From contig NC_092312.1 of NCBI RefSeq assembly GCF_036785885.1, forward strand, positions 20,726,001-20,790,000: DNA of 64,000 bases, written 5' to 3'. Of the stretch, positions 12,402 to 43,428 are shown in pieces. The first letter of the stretch is position 1; every line of letters begins with the position of its first letter. The notes under the pieces are model-generated. The model did no database searches and was not told the origin of the DNA. It saw nothing but the letters and a program-made list of their open reading frames with translations. Source of the stretch: Coffea arabica (taxonomy: Eukaryota; Streptophyta; Magnoliopsida; Gentianales; Rubiaceae). The position numbers and the translations under genes were made by a program.

Positions 12402-14910
12402 ATTACATCCCGAGTAGTTTTTCTGGGTTAGGAAAATTAAATTTGAAAGTTACGGAAGATTCGTGGGAGCTCTGCAAAATGCATTAAAAAAAAGTGAGAA
12501 TTAGAGTAGAGAAGTTTATTTTTATCTTTTACCCTCTGATTTTTGGGACTGGCTCAATATGCCTATTTATCTTTGAACTCCAATCGGAGCCTTGTGGTTT
12601 CCAATGTCCTATGCAACTATAAATCTCCCTCTAATGCCAATGGAAGGAGCTCTCCTCCTTCGTCGCCCACTTCTCCACTTCCTGTAATGACATATTTAGT
12701 CAACCCCAACTCAAGAAAAAATCCAACCATTCACATGAAAATTGAAATCCCATGCAATGATAAAACCTAGAACACTTAAAAGTAAAAAAATAAGAAGAAA
12801 GAGAGGCAAAACAATTCAAAAATGGAATTACGGAGATGGGGTTAATTGGAAAAGGTGTTTACATTTTTGTTGTGCGTGTAGGAAAAATTGAGAGGGAATC
12901 TACTGTAGATTTCTAGATAAGATTATGGAGAAAGACGTGGTGTAGGGAACAACTAAATAGGAAGACGATGAGTAAAAAAACTGGCAGAGAAGGCCAAGAG
13001 AAGCGCGAGAAAGAGCAATGGAGATTGCAGAGCTTTCAAGCGGTGGTGGTTCCATTGTACCTCAAATCACTGCTAAACTTGTTGCCGTCCGAGAACAGCA
13101 CATGGGGAATGTTGAAGAAAGCCAAAATTGCTTGGACACCTGGTAAAGAAAGCCAAGAAAAGAAGAGAGGAAACAAGGCCGAAATTGCACACCCCCCAAA
13201 ATTGCTCCTATCCAATAATAGCATGCGGACAGCAGTGAATTTCCACCAAAACCACTACCATCCAATGCCAGAAGACCAAAACACCACTCAAGACTCTATT
13301 CCGACCCATTGTCAAAACATTAATCTACAGCAAACCATCAAAAAAAAAGGGGCAAATAAAGCACAGAGTGGAGACTTTAGAAGATCAGCTTGCTCAGAAA
13401 ATCAGCTAAGTGAGACAATGAAGATTTCACCTTGCAAAACCAAAGATCACTGGGGACACCGTCCACTGCCTACTCACCAGTGCAGGCAAAGCAACTGCAA
13501 TTACACAAGAGATTAAGAAACCAAACATACGTGTGAGGCGAAATATACATAAAGCAACGAGTGAAGACTCTAGAAAACTTTGCAAAACCAGAGATCACTG
13601 GAGACACCGTCCACTGCCTACTCACCATCGGAGGCAAAGCAACTGCAATTACACAAGAGCTTAGGAAACCAAACATACGTGTGAGGCGAAATATACATAA
13701 AGCAAAGAATGAAGACTCTAGAAAGCTTTTCAAGACATTTGCTGACCGCCCACTAACTTAATAGTAATTGCTGACTACCAAAATGAAGAGCCACGCGGAC
13801 AGAGCAAGGTTACAATGCAAGAGAGCCAGCGGACAAAAGCAAAATACCAGCAGAGCCACTCCCACCCATCAGCAAAAGACCAAAATGCCCCTCAAGCTCA
13901 CACAAATCACGGCATAACCCGTCCACCAGGCACTGTTCGCAAGCTATTCGTGCTTTATATATGTAAGATAAGATAAGATATATATGGTGCGCAGTGCTGC
14001 ATAGAGGACTAATCTTTTTATTTCAAAGAATATATCTTTTTATTTTTTTCCCTCATTTTGAATAAATCTTCAGATGAATGCCTAACAAAATAATCTAGTG
14101 TGCTTGACCAATATTCTGTATTATTTCCATCTTGAGGTTAAAAGTTTTATAATGGAGTGAGATTTGTCATTGCAAAATATATGTTCTTGACAAAAAATAA
14201 AAAAAGTAAATACTACTTTAACATACCATGGTCAATGAATTTAATACAAGTTGCAACAATATTACTAGACTAGAAGTATACCATCATTTTCTATTTTTTT
14301 TTTAATTAGAAGTCTATTTTTGTATTACATTACATATTTTGTTATTTATTATAATACAAAATATAAAATACAACAAACTGTTTTGAATTCAAATCAAAAT
14401 GCAATTCTTCTTTAATGCACTTCGGATCATAGAAAATAAGTTGCGCTTTCTTTTAAAAAACAAACATGTATATATATGTATATGTATGTGTATATGTATG
14501 TGTGTAAATTTTATTTTAAATGCTTTTACAGATTATTTTTGGTAAAAATTAACTAATTCACAAATTAAATGCTAGAAAATAAAATGAGTCATAAATAGTA
14601 TGACAAATGTGCCCCAGAGGTACAGTAGTATATATTTGTTGACTAGTTCCGTGTCATGTCATTCAACAGTGAGAGACCCGGCAAATTTATAATCACCAAG
14701 TAAAGTAATAAAACATTTTTGACTAAAATTACATCCAATTGTTAAAATAAAGAATGACCATGTCGAACTAGCGCTAGAGCGCGTCTCTCAAGCAGCAGGC
14801 AGAATTTTGAACTTTTGGTTGGAGGCAGACGCTGAAAACGGACGACATGAAGTTTGTTCCAGACAAGACGAGGCAAAGACACCAAATTATGTGCATAGAT
14901 GCATGTGTAT
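12402..14910. other. Gene-poor stretch with a tandem duplication; 3' flank of the YY1-like gene
   Basis: The purine-rich part at 12960-13930 carries a 148-bp tandem repeat (separate entry) and a 182-codon open frame at 12968-13516 that matches no family I know and runs into the repeat. The remainder is AT-rich, with GATAAGATAAGATA near 13967 and (TA/TG)n near 14468. The end near 14742-14910 is probably the 3' untranslated region of the YY1-like gene. Confidence 0.5.
13433..13728. repeat. 148-bp tandem repeat, two copies
   Basis: TGCAAAACC...GATCACTGG at 13433 recurs at 13581, a period of 148 bases. Copies 13433-13580 and 13581-13728 differ at only a few positions, such as ACCAGTGCAGG against ACCATCGGAGG. 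A weak further match (GAGTGGAGACTTTAGAA near 13366) lies upstream. The high identity suggests a recent duplication. Confidence 0.85.
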
Positions 14911-22867: not shown

Positions 22868-23770
22868 TTAAGAAATATCAGCCAATATTTCCCTTAGCAA
22901 CAATTTCCCTCTTGAAATTTCAGCATGACCATTTTCTTGATGTGGTGCACAGACAATACTGGTTGCAGCTCTAGCTGTAGTCTTGCTCTTGCTGGAACCG
23001 TTTTTCCTGTGAATGAGACTCCTTAGGAGATTCATCCATAGTGGAAATCTAATCGGTTCAACAATGCAGTTCTCCAACTCGCTGACAATTTCTCCCATTG
23101 ACGGGCGATCAGTTTCTCCAAAATTTATACACCTTCTAGCAATGCTCAGCATGTTCCTAATCAGGCCGTCTGTAAATCGCGAAATAGGGACCCTTCCATC
23201 AGATATTTCCACAATCTGATCCTTTTGGATCAATGGAATTGCCCACTCAACAATTGAAGATGGTGATCTCGAAACATCCATCACTTTCCTGGCAGAAATA
23301 ATTTCCAGCAATAACACTCCAAAGCTGAATACGTCAATTTTGGTGCTTAACTTGCTAGGAACGGTATAAGCAGGGTCCAGGTAACCGATAGTCCCGGCTG
23401 GTCGGTTCAGTGAGTCAATTTGCCAGTTCAGGGAGTCATGATTCATTCTAATCGCAAGCCCAAGATCAGCCAACCTAGCATTCCAATCCGAGTCGAACAA
23501 AATGTTGGCTGATTTAATGTCCCTGTGGACAATTGGTGGCCTTGCTTCATGAAGAAACTGCACGGCTTTGGCTATCTGGAGAGCTATTTGGGCGCGTTTA
23601 GGCCATGTTGGCGGGGGACAGGAGGACGCCCCAACGGGGCTGCGGAGCATTTCATGAAGGGTTCCATTAGGCATGTATTCCATGACAAGAACTTTGTTGT
23701 TGGAAGAGTCATGACTGATGCCAAGAAGGTTGATCACGTATGGATTATGGGACAGTGATGATAAGATGTT

Positions 23771-24012
23771 TATTAGGGATAATGTATATCTCTGTAACAG
23801 AGTTAATGTATATCTCTGTAACAGAGTTGGTTATCAGTTTGAATTGGTAAAGAGATATCTAGCTGATTAGGTGTTATCCTTAGCTATACTTGTATTCAAA
23901 TAGGATCAGTAGCTATCGGTAGCGATATCCACGGTTTGGGCTGTATGTATATATATCCTTGACGAATGCGTAAGAAACAGGAATGAAAACTTCTTCCGCT
24001 GAAACCTTTTCA
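23771..24012 (+). repeat. 5' LTR of the copia element
   Basis: The LTR begins TATTAGGG and ends CCTTTTCA, so its termini are TA...CA instead of the usual TG...CA. Near its start a 24-bp unit (AATGTATATCTCTGTAACAG plus AGTT) occurs twice in tandem. TGTATATATATCC at about 23945-23957 is a plausible TATA box. Transcription would start some 30 bases later. Confidence 0.95.
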
Positions 24013-24030
24013 TGGTATCAGAGCAAGAAC
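24013..24030 (+). promoter_or_regulatory. Copia primer-binding site
   Basis: TGGTATCAGAGC directly abuts the LTR. This is the standard plant copia primer-binding site, complementary to the initiator methionine tRNA. Confidence 0.9.
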
Positions 24031-24050
24031 CTTCTGTCAACTGGAAAAAC

Positions 24051-27000
24051 ATGGAAGGAGATGGAAAGAAAATAGTGTCGCCATACACCTTGTATGCCAA
24101 TGATAATCCTGGAAATATAATCACCCAGGTACAGTTGAAGGAGGATAATTACGATGAATGGGCTAGAGCAATCCGAACTGCTCTCAGGGCCAAGAAGAAA
24201 TTCGGATTCATTGATGGAACCATAGCACAGCCAGATGAAGATTCCGATGAATTAGAAGACTGGTGGACAGTGAATTCCATGCTTATATCGTGGATGATGA
24301 ATACGATTGAGCCAACGGTGCGATCTACTTTGACACACAGGGAGATTGCAAAGAACTTGTGGGAAGACATTAAAGAATGTTTCTCAGTGACTGATGGTGC
24401 ACGAGTACAGCAACTGAAGACAGAATTAGCAAATTGCAAACAGCAAGGACTCTCCCTTATGAGTTACTATGCTAAATTGAAGCGACTGTGGGAAGAACTG
24501 GTGAATTATGACGCAATCTCTACGTGCAAGTGTGGGGGTTGTACGTGTAATGTGGCAACTGAATTAACAAAGAAACGAGAAGAAGAAAAACTTCACCAAT
24601 TTCTGATGGGGTTAGACGATGCATATAGAACAGTGAGATCAAACATTTTGAGCACAACTCCATTGCCTGGTGTGAGCAAGGCGTATTCCTTGATGTGCCA
24701 AGAAGAAAGGGTTCGAAATATCTCCAGGGAAAAAGAGATTAACAACGAAGCGGCTAGCTTTGTGGTTCAGGCCAAAACAGGAATCAAGGATAGGAGTGCC
24801 GTTTGTAAATACTGCAATCGCGAAGGGCATGATGCTGATGGATGTTTTCAGCTGATTGGATATCCCGATTGGTGGGGTGATCGACCTAAAATGTCTGGTT
24901 CAGGTCGAGGAAGACAGACTGGAGGAAGAGGACGTGGCAAGATGTCAGGAAGAGGACGAAATGGGGCACGAGTTAATGCAGCTCAAGTAATTGAAGAATC
25001 CACTGCTGCAACAAAGGATTTTGCTACTCCTAAAGGACTGACAAATGAACAATGGGCAGCAGTTGTGAGTTTGTTGAACGCTTGCAACTCAGAATCAGGG
25101 AGTAATGAGAAGATGACTGGTAAGGAAAATTTTATCTGGATAATTGATTCTGGCGCTACACAACATATGACAGGAAATTCGAGCTATCTATCTAGCTTGA
25201 ACCAGATATTAGGCTGTCCCATTGGCTTGCCTAATGGAGAACAGGTGCTGGCATTGCAAAAAGGGTCGATTCGGATGGGACAAAATATTCAATTAGACAA
25301 TGTTCTTCATGCTCCGGGATTACATTGCAATTTAATCTCAGTATCACAATTGGTTGATGACTCAAAATGTAATGTGTTGTTCACTGATAAGCTTTGTTTG
25401 ATACAGGACCGCACTTCGAGGATGGTGATTGGAGCGGGTGAACGATGCAAGGGGCTTTATTACTTCAAAAAGAAGACGCCAGTCCAAGCACTTCAAACTC
25501 GGACGTTGGATTCATGTGATCTTTGGCATCGGATAATGGGGCACCCGTCTTCAAAGGTCGTAGGTTTAATTTCTGGGGTTAAGATTCAATTAGGTTCAAA
25601 TGAAACTTGTGATGCTTGTTTTAAAGCTAAGCAAACGAGAGAAGTATTTTGTTCTAGTGATAGTAGAGCTAGTGAAACATTTGAATTGATTCATTGTGAC
25701 TTGTGGGGACCATATCGAGTCTCGAGTTCTTGTAATGCATCTTATTTTCTTACGATTGTTGATGATTTTTCCAGATGTGTGTGGATATATTTGATGATAG
25801 ATAAAACTGAAGTTGGCCATATTTTACCAAATTTTGTTGCTATGGTTCAACGACAATTTGTTAAGAATGTTAAGATAGTTCGTAGTGATAATGGCAGTGA
25901 GTTCGTCAGTTTGAAGGGATATTTCTCTGCTAAAGGGATAATCCATCAAACTTCATGTGTGGGAACGCCCCAACAGAATGGACGAGTGGAAAGAAAGCAT
26001 CGACATATACTGAATGTGGCTAGAGCTTTACGATTTCAGGCCAACTTACCAATCAGATTTTGGGGAGAATGTGTGTTAACTGCTGGATATCTGATTAATC
26101 GTACCCCTTCTCAATTACTAGGAGGAAAAACACCTTATGAAATGCTATATGGTCACTTGCCTGATTATCGGTCAATTCGTACATTTGGTTGCTTGTGTTA
26201 TGCACAGAGTTTGAATCGTACGAAGGACAAATTTGCTCCTCGAAGCCGGAAGTGTATCTTTGTGGGTTATCCGTTTGGACAGAAAGGTTGGCGGTTGTAT
26301 GATTTAGAAACACGAAAGTATTTCGTGTCTCGGGATGTTGTATTTTGTGAAGATGAGTTTCCATGTGCAGTTGACCACACACCTGATCATGTTCGAACCT
26401 GTACGGATAATTCAATAGATGATTACCTTGAAGAAGAGGTAGTCGGTCAGACAAGAGACAAGGAAAAGGAGCAGCTTGCTCATGTTCGTGAAACTCATGA
26501 ACGTTTAGATTGTGTGCCGAATGACAATGCCAACGTAAGGCAGGGAGGTGTAACAATTGAACCTCGAATGGAGAACGTAGAGACAGTAGAAGGTGTGACA
26601 GCACTTGGTCGTGGCCTTCGTTCCAAGAAAGTCTCTACACGGCTGAAGGATTGTGTGACTTATGCAGTTCAAAGTGCAAGTCCCTCTGCAAGTTCAGCCA
26701 ATCCATCACCATTCTCAGGTACGTCTTATGACTTAGCTCAATATGTTGATTACACAAAGTTCTCACCAGGTCATCAAGCTTTCTTGGCAGCCATCACAAC
26801 CAATTTTGAGCCAAGATTTTATCATCAAGCGGTTAAAGATGTCCGATGGAGAGAAGCTATGCAAAAAGAGATTGATGCGCTCAAACAAAATGGCACATGG
26901 ACTCTTGTTGACTTACCACCAGGGAAGAAAGCAATAGGAAGCAAATGGGTGTACAAAATTAAGTATAATTCTGATGGGACCATTGAACGATACAAGGCGC

Positions 27001-28343
27001 GATTGGTAATTCTTGGCAACAACCAGGTTGAAGGGATCGACTACAATGAAACCTTTGCACCAGTAGCAAAAATGGTTACGGTCCGCACATTTCTCTCTGT
27101 GGCAGCAGCTAAGGGATGGGGACTTCATCAAATGGATGTTCATAATGCCTTTCTCCATGGAGACTTAGCCGAAGAGGTTTATATGAAACTACCTCCTGGA
27201 TTTCACACTGACCAACCCGGGAAGGTGTGTCGCTTGAGAAGGTCCCTTTACGGTTTACGACAAGCACCGCGTTGTTGGTTTGCAAAATTGGCTGAAGCTC
27301 TAAAACGGTATGGTTTTCTTCAGTCACAGTCTGATTATTCCTTGTTTACTTTGATACGAGATGGGATCCAGTTGGCTGTGTTAGTATACGTGGATGACCA
27401 TATTATAGCTGGAAACAAAACGCATTTGATCAATGCATTCAAATCATACTTGCGCCAGGGTTTTCACATGAAAGATTTAGGTGCTTTGAAGTATTTTTTG
27501 GGCGTTGAAGTAGCTCGAAATGCTGACGGGATTTTCTTGTGTCAACGGAAATATGCTTTAGATATCATTAATGAAGCAGGATTATTGGGTGCTAAACCTT
27601 CGAAGTTTCCTATGGAGCAGAATCATTCTCTCGCTTTAGCCAAAGGTGATTTGCTGCAGGATCCTGATCAATACCGAAGGCTGGTAGGACGTTTGATTTA
27701 CTTGAGCTTAACTCGGCCTGAGCTGTCCTATGGTGTGCATATTTTGGCACAATTTATGCACCAGCCACGGAAAGAGCATTGGGAGGCAGCCTTGCGCATA
27801 GTCCGATACTTGAAAGGTAGTCCAGGACAAGGCATTTTACTCAACGCTGATTGCAATCTTGAACTGAAAGCTTATTGCGATTCGGATTGGGGAGGTTGTC
27901 CATTAACTCGGAGATCACTTACAGGTTATTTCATCTTTCTTGGGCCCTCTCCGATTTCATGGAAGACCAAGAAACAACATACGGTTTCTCGCTCTTCTGC
28001 TGAAGCGGAATATCGCTCCTTGGCCGCCACGGTCTGTGAATTGAAATGGCTAAAGGGTTTGTTATTGTCTTTGGGAGTGCATCATGATCAATCTGCTGGA
28101 GTATTTTGTGATAGCCAAGCTGCGATGCATATAGCTGCCAATCCTGTCTTTCATGAACGCACCAAACACATCGAAGTTGATTGCCATTTTGTTCGCGATG
28201 AAATACAGAAAGGTATGATCAAAACGGTTTATGTTCGAAGTCACGACCAGTTAGCAGACATTCTAACCAAAGCTTTGGGTCGAGATCAGTTTGAGTTTCT
28301 TCTTCGCAAATTGGGCGTTCGTGATCCTCACGCTCCAACTTGA
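24051..28343 (+). CDS. Copia gag-pol polyprotein, intact
   Basis: This is a single frame of 1430 residues if translation starts at ATG 24051. The frame is open back to 24012, but that ATG overlaps the LTR end and primer site. Positions are relative to 24051. A gag domain with YDEWARAIRTALRAKK comes first, then a CCHC zinc knuckle CKYCNREGHDADGC at about 252. The aspartic protease has DSGA at about 365. A GAG-pre-integrase LWHRIMGHPS precedes the integrase triad: D in HCDLWGPY (about 549), D in RSDNGSEF (about 612) and E in GRVERKH (about 646). The reverse transcriptase has VYVDDHI at about 1112. RNase H has AYCDSDWGG at about 1273 and SSAEAEYR. The C-terminus ADILTKAL is typical. No stop or frameshift was seen. 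It would supply capsid protein and the enzymes for reverse transcription and integration. Confidence 0.97.
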   Translation: MEGDGKKIVSPYTLYANDNPGNIITQVQLKEDNYDEWARAIRTALRAKKKFGFIDGTIAQPDEDSDELEDWWTVNSMLISWMMNTIEPTVRSTLTHREIAKNLWEDIKECFSVTDGARVQQLKTELANCKQQGLSLMSYYAKLKRLWEELVNYDAISTCKCGGCTCNVATELTKKREEEKLHQFLMGLDDAYRTVRSNILSTTPLPGVSKAYSLMCQEERVRNISREKEINNEAASFVVQAKTGIKDRSAVCKYCNREGHDADGCFQLIGYPDWWGDRPKMSGSGRGRQTGGRGRGKMSGRGRNGARVNAAQVIEESTAATKDFATPKGLTNEQWAAVVSLLNACNSESGSNEKMTGKENFIWIIDSGATQHMTGNSSYLSSLNQILGCPIGLPNGEQVLALQKGSIRMGQNIQLDNVLHAPGLHCNLISVSQLVDDSKCNVLFTDKLCLIQDRTSRMVIGAGERCKGLYYFKKKTPVQALQTRTLDSCDLWHRIMGHPSSKVVGLISGVKIQLGSNETCDACFKAKQTREVFCSSDSRASETFELIHCDLWGPYRVSSSCNASYFLTIVDDFSRCVWIYLMIDKTEVGHILPNFVAMVQRQFVKNVKIVRSDNGSEFVSLKGYFSAKGIIHQTSCVGTPQQNGRVERKHRHILNVARALRFQANLPIRFWGECVLTAGYLINRTPSQLLGGKTPYEMLYGHLPDYRSIRTFGCLCYAQSLNRTKDKFAPRSRKCIFVGYPFGQKGWRLYDLETRKYFVSRDVVFCEDEFPCAVDHTPDHVRTCTDNSIDDYLEEEVVGQTRDKEKEQLAHVRETHERLDCVPNDNANVRQGGVTIEPRMENVETVEGVTALGRGLRSKKVSTRLKDCVTYAVQSASPSASSANPSPFSGTSYDLAQYVDYTKFSPGHQAFLAAITTNFEPRFYHQAVKDVRWREAMQKEIDALKQNGTWTLVDLPPGKKAIGSKWVYKIKYNSDGTIERYKARLVILGNNQVEGIDYNETFAPVAKMVTVRTFLSVAAAKGWGLHQMDVHNAFLHGDLAEEVYMKLPPGFHTDQPGKVCRLRRSLYGLRQAPRCWFAKLAEALKRYGFLQSQSDYSLFTLIRDGIQLAVLVYVDDHIIAGNKTHLINAFKSYLRQGFHMKDLGALKYFLGVEVARNADGIFLCQRKYALDIINEAGLLGAKPSKFPMEQNHSLALAKGDLLQDPDQYRRLVGRLIYLSLTRPELSYGVHILAQFMHQPRKEHWEAALRIVRYLKGSPGQGILLNADCNLELKAYCDSDWGGCPLTRRSLTGYFIFLGPSPISWKTKKQHTVSRSSAEAEYRSLAATVCELKWLKGLLLSLGVHHDQSAGVFCDSQAAMHIAANPVFHERTKHIEVDCHFVRDEIQKGMIKTVYVRSHDQLADILTKALGRDQFEFLLRKLGVRDPHAPT

Positions 28344-28350
28344 GGGGGGG
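28342..28350 (+). promoter_or_regulatory. Copia polypurine tract
   Basis: GAGGGGGGG lies directly before the 3' LTR and overlaps the TGA stop of the polyprotein. It should prime plus-strand DNA synthesis. Confidence 0.85.
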
Positions 28351-28592
28351 TATTAGGGATAATGTATATCTCTGTAACAGAGTTAATGTATATCTCTGTA
28401 ACAGAGTTGGTTATCAGTTTGAATTGGTAAAGAGATATCTAGCTGATTAGGTGTTATCCTTAGCTATACTTGTATTCAAATAGGATCAGTAGCTATCGGT
28501 AGCGATATCCACGGTTTGGGCTGTATGTATATATATCCTTGACGAATGCGTAAGAAACAGGAATGAAAACTTCTTCCGCTGAAACCTTTTCA
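28351..28592 (+). repeat. 3' LTR of the copia element
   Basis: This copy is identical to the 5' LTR over 242 bases, including the tandem 24-bp unit and the TA...CA ends. It is followed by the target copy ATGTT and then kinase coding sequence. Confidence 0.95.
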
Positions 28593-28801
28593 ATGTTCAC
28601 TTCATTTTCGAGTTTCGAATTGTCTCGAAGCTTTTGAAGGCCTAGTGATTGCTTCTTTACGGCCACAAGCTGATCATGTTCGCAACCATTTCTCTTCAGA
28701 ATGCCTCTGTAAACATGGCCATGGCTCCCTTTACCGACAAGTCGCGATTGAGAGAAGTTTTCAGTTGCTTGAACAAGTTCTTCATACTTGAATTCATGCA
28801 T

Positions 28802-30174
28802 TTTTTGGCTCCGTCTTGACCGAAAGCACTCTGCTCCCGCTATATACAAGAGTATGCAACAAATTAAAAGGGCATATGTATATGAAGCCCGTGGCTTGAA
28901 AGGTAGATATCAGTGACGCGTTTTCTAGTCGCTGTGGTGTTTTGGTATGAACATGGGAATATATCGTTTTCTTGAATTAGGAAAAGAAGGAATCTTTGAG
29001 GTTAAAGAAAGGATCTAGAATGCAATAAGTAAAGTATATAAAATTAGAAAATTCAAAGTGAAGAGGAAAAGTGGGAGAAGAGAATGAAATTTCTAAAGAA
29101 AAGGTGAAGATGTCCTAGCCAAAAGTTGAAGGTGTCTGACAAGGCATAAACCATGATATGAGAGAAATGCTATATGAGCTGGTTTTCTGGACCCTCCCTC
29201 ACCTTTTCGACTTTTCTTGTACTGGCAAGATTTCAGTAGACATTTGGAGACTAATTGCTATCACACTGCTGTCAAATGTGAAGAACCCTCCTTTTTAATC
29301 CACCAGGCCAAATTTTCAAGCACGTTACTGGCAAGATTCTGAGGATCTTCTTAGTTTCAAACGTTCATACAAATGGGGATCCAAACTAAAAGGCCGGCAG
29401 GAAGGAAATCTCCATCTTTTGCAGCCTCCCTGGCTCGCAACGCTGCAGTGTCATCCTTTACACATTTGGCTGCCAAATCTTACTTTGTCAAACGATAAGC
29501 ATTTAGGAGGCCATTTTACACCATACCAGTTCATAAATCTAGACCAGCACAAGTAACTAAAGAATTATTTAGAAAAAACTTAATTGATTTGTTTACAAGG
29601 CCAACTTAACCCAAGAGTCTGACTTTAAGTTCTCCGAACTGTATCATTCAGTTGCTATGTACATGTGATTGTATCTATGTGCCACTTGGTCTACTGCTCG
29701 CTTGTTAGCCTTCGTTTGCTCCTCAAGCTGGAAAAGGGCAAAGGCAAATGAGGTAACCTCCCTGAAGAATGGAACAACTGAACACCAAGATGGTTAGACG
29801 GAGAGAGAAACAAGAAGCAAGAATTATATAGGCGTCTCCAGCTGCTTCTGATAGTTGGAGGTGTAAACGAATCTAATCAACTTGAACGCCCTAATGTTCA
29901 AATTTGTTTGATTATTTTAACGATTTGAAATTATGTTCAAATTTGGCTTGTTTATTTGCCAAACTGAGATTGAACGGACTCTTTATCGAGTTTGAACGTT
30001 ATTGAACATGAAACGAGATTCAAATTTGACTTAATTAATCGGTGAATCGAGTTTGATGGATGTCTTGACAAATCAAACTCGATTCGAGTATCAAATGGTT
30101 TGATTTATCTAATGCCTTTGACGACGAGATTACATTCGATGCACGACGGGGCGGGGTACAAAAAGTGATGTTAT
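28802..30174. other. Upstream region of the disrupted kinase gene
   Basis: On the minus strand 28910-28802 is open and in frame with the kinase. It encodes a hydrophobic run (YALLICCILLYIAGA) followed by RSRR but has no ATG after an in-frame TGA. Short coding-like stretches at 29385-29770 are listed separately. DNA at about 29870-30120 is rich in TTCAAATTTG and GAGTTTGA words and looks like a decayed repeat. Confidence 0.45.
29385..29770 (-). other. Two short coding-like stretches of unknown identity with a TATA-like box upstream
   Basis: On the minus strand a frame entered after CAG near 29792 runs 40-odd codons to a TGA near 29645. It includes FALFQLEEQTKANKRAVDQV and HRYNHMYIATE. A second frame near 29490-29385 includes DDTAALRAREAAKDGDFLP. 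Both look amphipathic and protein-like. A CCTATATAATTC box lies upstream at about 29822-29833 and a pyrimidine patch follows it. I do not recognise the family. They could be leader exons or short upstream frames of the kinase transcript, a small gene, or a gene fragment. Confidence 0.3.
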
Positions 30175-37068: not shown

Positions 37069-38453
37069 GGGAAAATCGTTCAAAATATCTTTCGCATTTT
37101 ACAAGATGACTTTTTTCGCCCCTCACTTTTAAAAGTATAATTTTACGTCCCTTATAAATTCATAATGATCAAATTTGGTCCTTACCTAGGTTTTTGACTA
37201 GTTTTTTGTCAGAATCACCACGTGACTTGTATGTGATCATTTTTTAAGGACAAAATTGTCAAATCAAATGTTTACATAATCTGATTCATAGTTCCTAACA
37301 TCTTACAAAATGAATTTTTTCGTCCCTAACATTTTAGAAAATGAATTGTTTCGTTCCTCACATTTCAAAAAATGAATTTTTCCATCCCTCACATTTTTCA
37401 AAATGAATTTTTTCATCTCTCATTGATCATGTGTATGAATAGCTTTTTTTCTATAAACCCACGTATATGTCTATTTGATTTTATCTGAACAGTATGAATA
37501 ACATGTAATTTATCTCTATTGGATTTCATCTAAACATGCTAATCGTAGTTATACACATGCTATTCAATAAATATATATAGGGGTTTAAAACTAATAATTT
37601 TGTTTGAACCCACGTATATATTTATATGATTTCACCATTTGAACCTATTTAATATTTGTGACATTTCTCTTTTGGTAATAATTTATTTATTAAATTGTAT
37701 TATAAGGTCATATAATTAATGAGTTCTAAGCCGAATTTTATAATTGTGCTAACAAATTTCAGTTTAAATATAAAATTTCTACTCGACACTTTTAAAACCA
37801 ACAGTTAAATTACTTGTCTTGTGATTGTTTTAAAATTTGAAAATTCCAATCACTTATTTCTTTTTGTCATACTTTCTTTTGTTTATTTTTCTGTCCAAAT
37901 TTAATTCGATATAAACACTCGATAATATTTAGAATTAAATGTCTTATTTATTTTTAAATTTCGAGTAAAAGAAAATGAATATAAGTGAAAAACTAACAAT
38001 TTTTTTGAACCCATGTATATATCTATTTGATTTTATTTGAGCAGTACGAATAGTATATAATATATCTCTATTTGATTTCACATGCTATTCGTACTGTTCA
38101 GGTGAAATCAAATAGATATATACATGAATTTAAAAAAAATTATTCACACACATGATTAATAAAAAATGAAAAAATTCATTTTGAAAAATGTGAAGGATGA
38201 AAAAATTCATTTTGTGAAATGTAGGGGACGAAAAATTTTATTCTATGAAATGTGAGGAATTATGAATCGAATTATATAAAATTTGATTTGACAATTTTGC
38301 TCTTAAAATATGATCACGTGTAAGGCACATGGTGAATTTCGACAAAAAACTAATCGAAAACTTAAGTATGGACTAAATTTGACTAATGTGAATTTGTAAG
38401 GGACGAAAAAAATTATTTTACAAAATGTGAATGACGTTTTAAACGATTTTTCC
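37069..38453. mobile_element. Foldback/Mutator-type non-autonomous element, 1385 bp, terminal arms of over 400 bp
   Basis: The left end GGGAAAATCGTTCAAAA is the reverse complement, with one or two changes, of the right end TTTTAAACGATTTTTCC. Similarity continues inward for at least 400 bases per arm. It covers CGTCCCT...AAATTCA, TTTTTTGTCAGAATCACC, GACAAAATTGTCAAATCAAA and repeats of CTCACATTT.AAAATGAATTTTTTC. TTTTGGACA at 37060-37068 and TTTTGGATA at 38454-38462 form a 9-bp near-duplication (8 of 9). Long terminal inverted repeats with a 9-bp duplication are characteristic of MULEs. No transposase frame remains. The centre has repeats of a CTATTTGATTT(C/T)A motif. Confidence 0.82.
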
Positions 38454-39420: not shown

Positions 39421-39592
39421 CACTTAGGATCCTCGGTGACATGTTTTTCATGCCAACTCAATGTCACCTATAATATTATGTCAAGTGTAAATAATAACAG
39501 GACATTTGACATAATATTATAGGTGGCATTGAGTTGACATAGAAAACATGTCACCGAGAATCCCAAGTGCATGTCACCAAGGATCTCAAGTG
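39421..39592. mobile_element. Hairpin MITE, 172 bp, 8-bp target duplication (hAT-like)
   Basis: CTGTAACT occurs at 39412-39419 and at 39593-39600. Inside, CACTTAGGATCC faces GGATCTCAAGTG at the ends. The arms GCCAACTCAATGTCACCTAT and its near-perfect reverse complement fold into a long hairpin over a loop near 39488-39505. The right end carries an extra tandem copy of a 23-bp segment (CATGTCACCNAGNATC-CAAGTG). An 8-bp duplication fits hAT transposases. Confidence 0.8.
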
Positions 39593-41704: not shown

Positions 41705-41811
41705 AATTTTTAGGACTAGAGATTACCCCACATCCATTCGCCCCCCACAAAAAAAATTAAGCCCACAGCAACCCTCCCCCCCACCCCACCCCCAAAAAAA
41801 AAAAAAAAAAA

Positions 41812-43428
41812 ATGGAACTCACTGATTTACAGCAGCACCAAACAAATAAACAGACCAACGCCAACAATACCAATACTTCCTCCACCACCACCACCTGCAC
41901 CACTTCACAATCTTACCACTTCTCACCCTTCCACCTCCACCACCACCACCATCAGCAGCAGCATGGCCGCTCTGCCCCATTTATAGCCTCTATCTCCATC
42001 CCACCACCAGCTGCCCTCACAAGCAGTGTTGCTGGTGCTACTAGTACAACTTGTGCGGCTGCAGCCGGTGGCAACCGCACCCCATCATCCGCCTCCCCCT
42101 CCACACCCTCCACCAGTGCTTCTCCTTCCTCCGCCGCCGTCGATGCCTCCTTAGCTATAGCCACCAGATCCGAAACCTTGATTGACCCCTCCAAGAAGCC
42201 TCCTCAACAACAGCAAGAAGCAGCCCAACAGCAGCAGCCACCCAAGAGATCCACAAAGGACCGCCACACCAAAGTTGACGGCCGAGGCAGGCGTATCCGA
42301 ATGCCGGCTGCCTGTGCAGCTAGGGTTTTCCAGTTGACTCGAGAGCTAGGTCACAAGTCCGACGGCGAGACAATCGAGTGGCTTCTACAGCAAGCCGAGC
42401 CAGCCATAATCGCCACCACCGGCACGGGAACCATCCCGGCTAACATTTCAACCCTCAACATATCCGTCAGGAGCAGCGGCTCCACTCTCTCTGCTCCTCC
42501 TTCAAAATCAGCTCCTCATTCTTTCCACAGCGCGCTGGCCTTAGCTCACCACCCCTATGAGGAAGGGTTTTCCCACATGTTGGGTTTTCAGCAACAGCAG
42601 CAGCATTTGTTAGCAGCAAATCAAATGACGGAAGCGATTCCCAGCGGAGACGGTGGCGGAGATAGCGGCGGCGGCGGTGGGCAAGATGCCACGGAGAGTT
42701 ATTTAAGGAAAAGATATAGGGAAGATTTGTTCAAAGAGGAAGGATCAAGCGGCCGCCAAGGAGACGGCGCAGATGAAACTTCACCTTCTCCTCCAAATAA
42801 GCAATTCAAAGTAGGAGGTGGTGGTGGTGGCATGCAGATACCGAAAACACAAGATGTTGGAGGGCCATCATCCGGCATGCTGAGGCATGCCAATATGATA
42901 CCCGCCACTGCCATGTGGGCAGTGGCACCGGCACCCAACAGTGGTGGCGCAACTGGTAGCGCGTTTTGGATGTTACCAGTTACTGCTGGTGGCAGCAGCC
43001 AGACAATATTGGCGGCCACATCTGGCGGGGCTGTTCAGCAGCAGCCAACAGAGCAACAGCACCACCACCACCAGATGTGGCCATTTCCGAGCTCCAGTGG
43101 GAACACGCTACAGGCTCCCTTACATTTCATGCCGAGGTTTAATATCCCCGCCGGGAACCTTGAGACGTTTCAAGGTGGGAGAGCTAGCCCACTGCAGCTG
43201 GGATCAATGCTAATGCAACAGCAACAGCAGCAGCACCCGTCTCAGCATTTAGGTTTGGGAATGTCTGAGTCTAACCTGGGGATGTTGGCAGCTCTGAATG
43301 CTTATTCAAGAGGGGTTGGTAATTTAAATATGAATTCTGATCACCAAAACCACCCAATGGATCATCAACAGCAGCACCAGCCTCAACCTACAGATAGTGG
43401 AGAAGATGGTCCAAACAGTTCTCAGTGA
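41812..43428 (+). CDS. TCP8: Class I TCP transcription factor, TCP8-like
   Basis: This is a single-exon gene encoding 538 residues. The TCP basic helix-loop-helix domain lies at about residues 146-205. It reads [20 protein letters not shown], then [20 protein letters not shown] and QQAEPAII. The class I pattern has a shorter basic region than class II. Class I TCPs bind GTGGGNCC-type sites, act in the nucleus and generally promote growth and immune gene expression. After the domain come [31 protein letters not shown] and [15 protein letters not shown]. These match Arabidopsis TCP8 best from memory; TCP14/15/22/23 are the alternatives. The protein is rich in Gln, His, Ser and Gly tracts, suggesting disorder. 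The start follows an 18-base A run and is the first ATG of this frame. Confidence 0.93.

Follow-up and report, generated by a model that had tools for sequence, protein, structure and literature searches.

The tobacco retrotransposons Tnt1 and Tto1 carry short palindromic boxes in tandem in the U3 region of their long terminal repeats (LTRs) and insert in or near genes. Such LTRs usually have TG...CA termini, which are not obligatory, and elements with TA...CA ends exist in the literature. For Coffea arabica, PMC11018527, in the part drawn on here, dates the allopolyploid founding to 350-610 ka and gives no major evidence that LTR elements were mobilised once the parental genomes had merged. 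Here we describe a window of 64,000 nucleotides of this genome (C3:20726001-20790000), in which a Ty1/copia element of 4,822 bp was recently inserted at window positions 23771-28592. The element, in + orientation, interrupts the frame of a Ser/Thr kinase encoded on the − strand. We consider it highly probable that a recent insertion into one of two kinase homoeologues, by a family that was mobile after the merger, accounts for the locus.

The insertion has the features of an LTR retrotransposon, namely LTRs in direct orientation, a target site duplication (TSD) and a polypurine tract (PPT) adjoining the 3′ LTR. As had been claimed in the preliminary description of this DNA, the 5′ LTR (23771-24012, + strand) and the 3′ LTR (28351-28592, + strand) are identical at 242/242 bp, the two copies of the duplicated ATGTT (23766-23770 and 28593-28597) match perfectly, and gag-pol is uninterrupted, forming one frame of 1,446 aa from stop to stop (24003-28343, + strand; open reading frame list and Pfam). 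At the start of U3, two 24-bp units stand in tandem (23780-23828, and 28360-28408 in the 3′ LTR; + strand), each with the inverted repeat CTCTGT-A-ACAGAG. A TATATA at position 178 of the 5′ LTR (23948-23953, + strand) is a possible promoter TATA box, by sequence match only. The end of the 5′ LTR is adjoined by a sequence resembling a primer binding site (PBS), TGGTATCAGAGC (24013-24024, + strand), which may be complementary to initiator tRNA-Met. Most Ty1/copia groups prime with tRNA-Met, according to a passage of PMC6317226. The PPT, ending in TTGAGGGGGGG, occupies 28340-28350 (+ strand) directly before the 3′ LTR, and the same motif precedes the 3′ LTR of the copies of this element on contigs C1 and C7.

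The domains of gag-pol, assigned by Pfam (PF14244, PF22936, PF13976, PF00665, PF25597 and PF07727), follow the order gag, beta-barrel, gag-pre-integrase, integrase, SH3-like and reverse transcriptase. Both the copia-type gag (PF14244) and the reverse transcriptase (PF07727) scored above the cut-off, which assigns the element to Ty1/copia, and within the single polyprotein the integrase (rve, residues 560-656) lies upstream of the reverse transcriptase (RVT_2, residues 963-1205). A match of gag-pol to PF03732 scored under its Pfam cut-off, and an NCBIfam search of the element protein and of the kinase gave no match over the cut-off for either. The LTRs do not have TG...CA termini; they run from TA to CA here and in four complete siblings, whose termini were inspected either on both sides of the element or in the 5′ LTR. 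A literature search for TA...CA or other non-canonical LTR ends gave no listed example. The window holds one copy of the element only, with no further nested or duplicated copy.

The whole genome (131 contigs, 1,197,963,845 bases) was searched with the pattern of the two flanks joined at a single target copy. An unoccupied site was found on C4, where 23/24 bases matched, with one mismatch, and where the target is present as a single copy, ATGTG. Two other places in the genome, at three mismatches, look like chance, and the reversed-pattern control returned none. The existence of an empty site in the same genome rules out chance repeats as the origin of the LTR and TSD pattern. The one mismatch falls within the duplicated pentamer; since both window copies share the same base at this position, the difference between C3 and C4 either predates the insertion or originated on C4. 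The C4 site lies inside an intact open kinase frame of 407 aa, with 96% protein identity to the rejoined window kinase. Between the two kinases, compared from the start codon, dN was 0.015 and dS 0.041; the ratio of 0.37 indicates that the gene was constrained before the insertion.

Over 9 kb, C3 and C4 differ at 258/7,073 aligned bases (the sum of the 17 bins with aligned bases, one of which differs by 19% and the others by 0.8-7.7%), with several large gaps and indels of up to ~1 kb. Because of this divergence and these large indels, the C4 empty site is, as judged from the alignments, a homoeologue and not an allele. A segregating allele in a heterozygous diploid, with C4 as the other haplotype, would likewise present one filled and one empty copy, but we regard this as very improbable: a filled and an empty allele of one locus would not be expected to show such divergence and large indels, nor the kinase dS, and the kinase matches fall on paired chromosomes throughout the search list (contigs C1/C2, C3/C4 and onward). 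The published assembly of matching size, moreover, is from an allotetraploid, di-haploid line: the C. arabica HiFi assembly is that of line ET-39, as stated in the part of PMC11018527 used here. The sequenced plant is very probably this line. If so, heterozygosity at the insertion is unlikely, and the suggestion of a heterozygous site in the preliminary description gives way to that of an empty homoeologue.

That both kinase halves are open and rejoin in frame, as had also been proposed, was borne out by the joined flanks: at one ATGTT they form a single open kinase frame of 368 aa beginning with MHEFKY, and neither half contains stops or frameshifts. The 5′ half (28598-28801, − strand), from the start codon, carries what we take to be the glycine loop, the lysine of VAVKK and the helix C glutamate, and the 3′ half (22868-23770, − strand; Pfam PF00069 and PF07714) extends to the C terminus and bears the HRD and DLG motifs, named on the same presumption. 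The frame is broken after ~68 kinase codons, and the 5′ fragment would read ~33 codons into the LTR. All the catalytic motifs of an active kinase stand in one chain in the frame of the C4 homoeologue, and in no chain of the window. Because 4.8 kb separate the ATP-binding elements of one fragment from the catalytic motifs of the other, the window copy is almost certainly without kinase activity. The C4 homoeologue, being intact and empty, can probably cover the function. The earlier claim of a null allele therefore stands in so far as this kinase copy is very probably inactivated, and fails in its reach, as the loss is confined to one homoeologue and the other is open over 407 aa. Because the element and the kinase lie on opposite strands (+ and −, respectively), transcription from the 3′ LTR would yield an antisense RNA of the kinase 5′ half and not a truncated kinase mRNA. 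The open frame extends 36 codons upstream of the kinase ATG (28802-28909) and includes a hydrophobic stretch; this extension is also conserved on C4 apart from an in-frame difference of 3 codons, and a longer or spliced kinase start is possible.

Four siblings with the same LTR (0-2 differences) were found on C1, C4, C7 and C22, the LTRs of the C1 copy being identical to those in the window. The internal bases of the window copy differ from the siblings at 5 (C1), 6 (C7) and 8 (C4) positions of 4,338, so that the C3 and C4 copies are at most 0.2% apart, and at 2/2,888 positions from the C22 copy. Each sibling has its own 5-bp duplication: GTTAT on C1, AATAT on C4, GAAAC on C7 and TAACC on C22. 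The C22 sibling (C22:49335293 onward) has kept its TAACC, although an internal deletion joins the first ~3,688 element bases to the last ~20 of the 3′ LTR. An assembly artefact is extremely unlikely, as a misjoin would not be expected to produce a perfect TSD, two intact element ends and an empty homoeologous site, nor four siblings with a 5-bp duplication each.

As judged at the empty site on C2, the C1 copy is situated between two reading frames of one serine carboxypeptidase-like gene, and because of this position it probably sits in an intron. The C7 copy is ~0.1 kb past the stop of a 209-aa frame, of which 150 aa were submitted to Pfam with no match, and the C4 copy is ~0.9 kb from an inositol-monophosphatase frame. 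At the C22 copy, where the reading frames only were inspected, no gene was recognised.

The whole-genome LTR search revealed at least 29 places, grouped into at least 14 insertions. Among the matches listed, 12 of the 14 insertions span two LTRs, the C22 copy is without most of the 3′ part and one is a palindrome; no solo LTR was present among these matches, which form a lower-bound list. A search with the inner part of the element returned 13 places at 92% identity or more. The LTR pairs of older copies differ at 4/239 positions (C11) and 9/223 positions (C14). The 24-bp U3 unit is doubled in six insertions (C1, C3, C4, C7, C22 and C11) and single in four older ones (C17, C14, C12 and a second on C17), a count that covers 10 of the 13 LTR-bearing insertions other than the palindrome. 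The LTR alignments omit seven older LTRs (C17 3′, C17b 5′, C12 3′ and some of those of C10, C7 at 9.17 Mb and C8).

The age of the insertion was estimated at 1.3e-8 per site per year, the rate given in the consulted part of PMC11018527. At this rate, 0/242 LTR differences correspond to 0-586 kyr (95%). LTR identity is thus a weak clock, and the 4,338 internal bases are the better ruler. The five young copies show a star-like pattern of 9 private and 0 shared changes: 5 in the window copy, which carries the most, 3 in C4, 1 in C7, 0 in C1 and 0 in C22 (in 2,888 bases). The older C11 copy carries the majority base at each of the nine variable sites. On the assumption that every private change post-dates insertion, the window copy is ~80 kyr old (26-186) at 1.3e-8, or 148 kyr at 7e-9, and the five copies pooled are 34 kyr old (16-65) or 64 kyr (29-121) at the respective rates. 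The recent insertion stated in the preliminary description is accordingly retained, but not its "little or no time", given the range that the LTRs allow and the five private internal changes. Conversion between LTRs is known in general, and an old insertion whose LTRs were kept identical by conversion or by chance would be compatible with the wide range permitted by LTR identity alone. Such an age is nonetheless very unlikely: four other copies have nearly the same internal bases, which are single-copy within the element, gag-pol is still an open frame, and the kinase halves have accumulated no stops or frameshifts.

Six sites among the 14 insertions, those of the five young copies and of the palindrome, were tested for an empty homoeologous site, and all six had one. 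The numbers of mismatches were 1 for the window on C4, 2 for the C1 copy on C2, 0 for the C4 copy on C3, 0 for the C7 copy on C8, 1 for the C22 copy on C21 and 0 for the palindrome on C3; the flanks of C22 and C1 were compared only via patterns of 32 and 30 bases, respectively. The simplest reading of these sequences is that the five-copy family transposed after the allopolyploid merger, because near-identical copies occupy unrelated sites and each is missing from the homoeologous site, and because each of C3 and C4 has a copy absent from its partner, and these two copies differ at 8/4,338 bases. Alternatively, the young copies may have moved before the merger in one parent and crossed by homoeologous exchange. 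Exchange between subgenomes is reported for C. arabica in the cited part of PMC11018527, and the doubled U3 unit of the older C11 copy fits a source in one parent. We nevertheless find this course of events unlikely: the homoeologues clearly differ at the four aligned sites (window, C7, C4 and palindrome), so that one segment was not plainly copied over the other, and, should odd and even contigs represent the two subgenomes, C4 and C22 would each have required a transfer of its own.

Several points weigh against transposition after the merger. An older estimate of the merger, 10-20 ka, is mentioned in the same part of PMC11018527, and if it applied, the copies would be older than the merger by their point dates. 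The pooled LTR pairs of four copies give an older date, 119 kyr (25-348), than the internal bases, and some of the private changes may stem from errors in copying or have arisen earlier, in a source copy that was not seen. Exchange of a homoeologous segment could have moved a copy. For the left flank of the C4 copy, the alignment to C3 is confined to 454 columns with 82% identity; the empty match for the C1 copy has its 2 mismatches at a site with tandem paralogues, which makes this counterpart less certain. Finally, a pointer to the subgenome, the C. canephora side, is available for one exon on C1 and not for C3, C4, C7 or C22. This caffeine-synthase exon is identical at 139/139 residues to PDB 2EFJ_A, a 3,7-dimethylxanthine methyltransferase presumably from C. 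canephora, and the best C2 counterpart tried differs at ~8/139 residues, where the C2 sequences compared are possibly paralogues.

The palindrome among the family's insertions is 308 bp long (C4:6583012-6583319) and consists of LTR positions 1-164 joined to the reverse complement of positions 144-1, both at 100% identity. It is flanked by a perfect ATTAC duplication, both its outer ends are the U3 end, and it lies in an X8-domain frame, with the empty counterpart at C3:6560212. The simplest reading of this structure is that a fold-back or end-joined cDNA was integrated by two U3 ends. Recombination between two inserted copies was considered as a source and set aside, as a perfect duplication is not expected of it. 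No obvious match to palindromic or inverted LTR insertions was seen among the titles and abstract starts of the literature retrieved. Our confidence is evenly divided over a broader proposal, in which a copia subfamily with the doubled U3 unit was mobile after the merger, mostly in or near genes, and its integrase at times inserts aberrant cDNA such as the palindrome. If true, this would provide both an exception to the published view of no major LTR mobilisation and an example from nature of integration through two U3 ends.

Taken together, post-merger mobility and the structure of the locus fit the following course. From a small Ty1/copia family with recent activity, one element was copied through RNA, and its integrase inserted the copy into the exon of one Ser/Thr kinase homoeologue, with the 5-bp duplication that the sequence shows. 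The kinase was thereby cut after ~68 residues into two fragments 4.8 kb apart and has almost certainly lost its activity, while the intact, empty homoeologue on C4 can probably cover the function. The family would have been mobile once both parental genomes had come together. Copia insertions that split genes are common, so the insertion itself is unsurprising, and the interest lies in the behaviour of the family. The locus offers a dated, testable loss of one kinase homoeologue in a crop with narrow diversity, and the family, with at least 14 insertions, can provide clean markers of transposition that followed the formation of the allopolyploid. A handful of insertions is compatible with the view expressed in the part of PMC11018527 drawn on here, to which this family would, provided that the dating is right, add at least one exception.

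Elsewhere in the window, an open frame of 555 aa at 41761-43428 encodes a domain of the TCP transcription factors (PF03634 in Pfam, E 4.6e-32). At 37202-38348 and 39421-39569 there are inverted repeats whose arms measure 64-151 nt, which may be fold-back or MITE-like elements, and 148-bp units, 93% alike, form a tandem pair at 13429-13724.

The interrupted kinase resembles the receptor-like cytoplasmic kinases of plants. PBL2 is its best PDB match (6j5t, E 3.5e-45), aligned over the entire kinase domain, and the HRD motif is of the RD type; it may also be similar to Arabidopsis At5g23170/At3g51990. The coffee kinase differs in having DLG in both homoeologues, whereas the three aligned paralogue pairs have DFG. 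The element, in turn, resembles plant Ty1/copia elements (Pseudoviridae) in its size, short LTRs, single gag-pol frame in which the integrase precedes the reverse transcriptase, target duplication of 5 bp, PBS-like sequence following the 5′ LTR and PPT ahead of the 3′ LTR, and from its size and sequence style we presume that it belongs to the Ale lineage. In contrast to these elements, it has TA...CA ends and a 24-bp tandem unit in U3. By its tandem U3 boxes and its insertion in or near genes, it is comparable in description to Tnt1 and Tto1.

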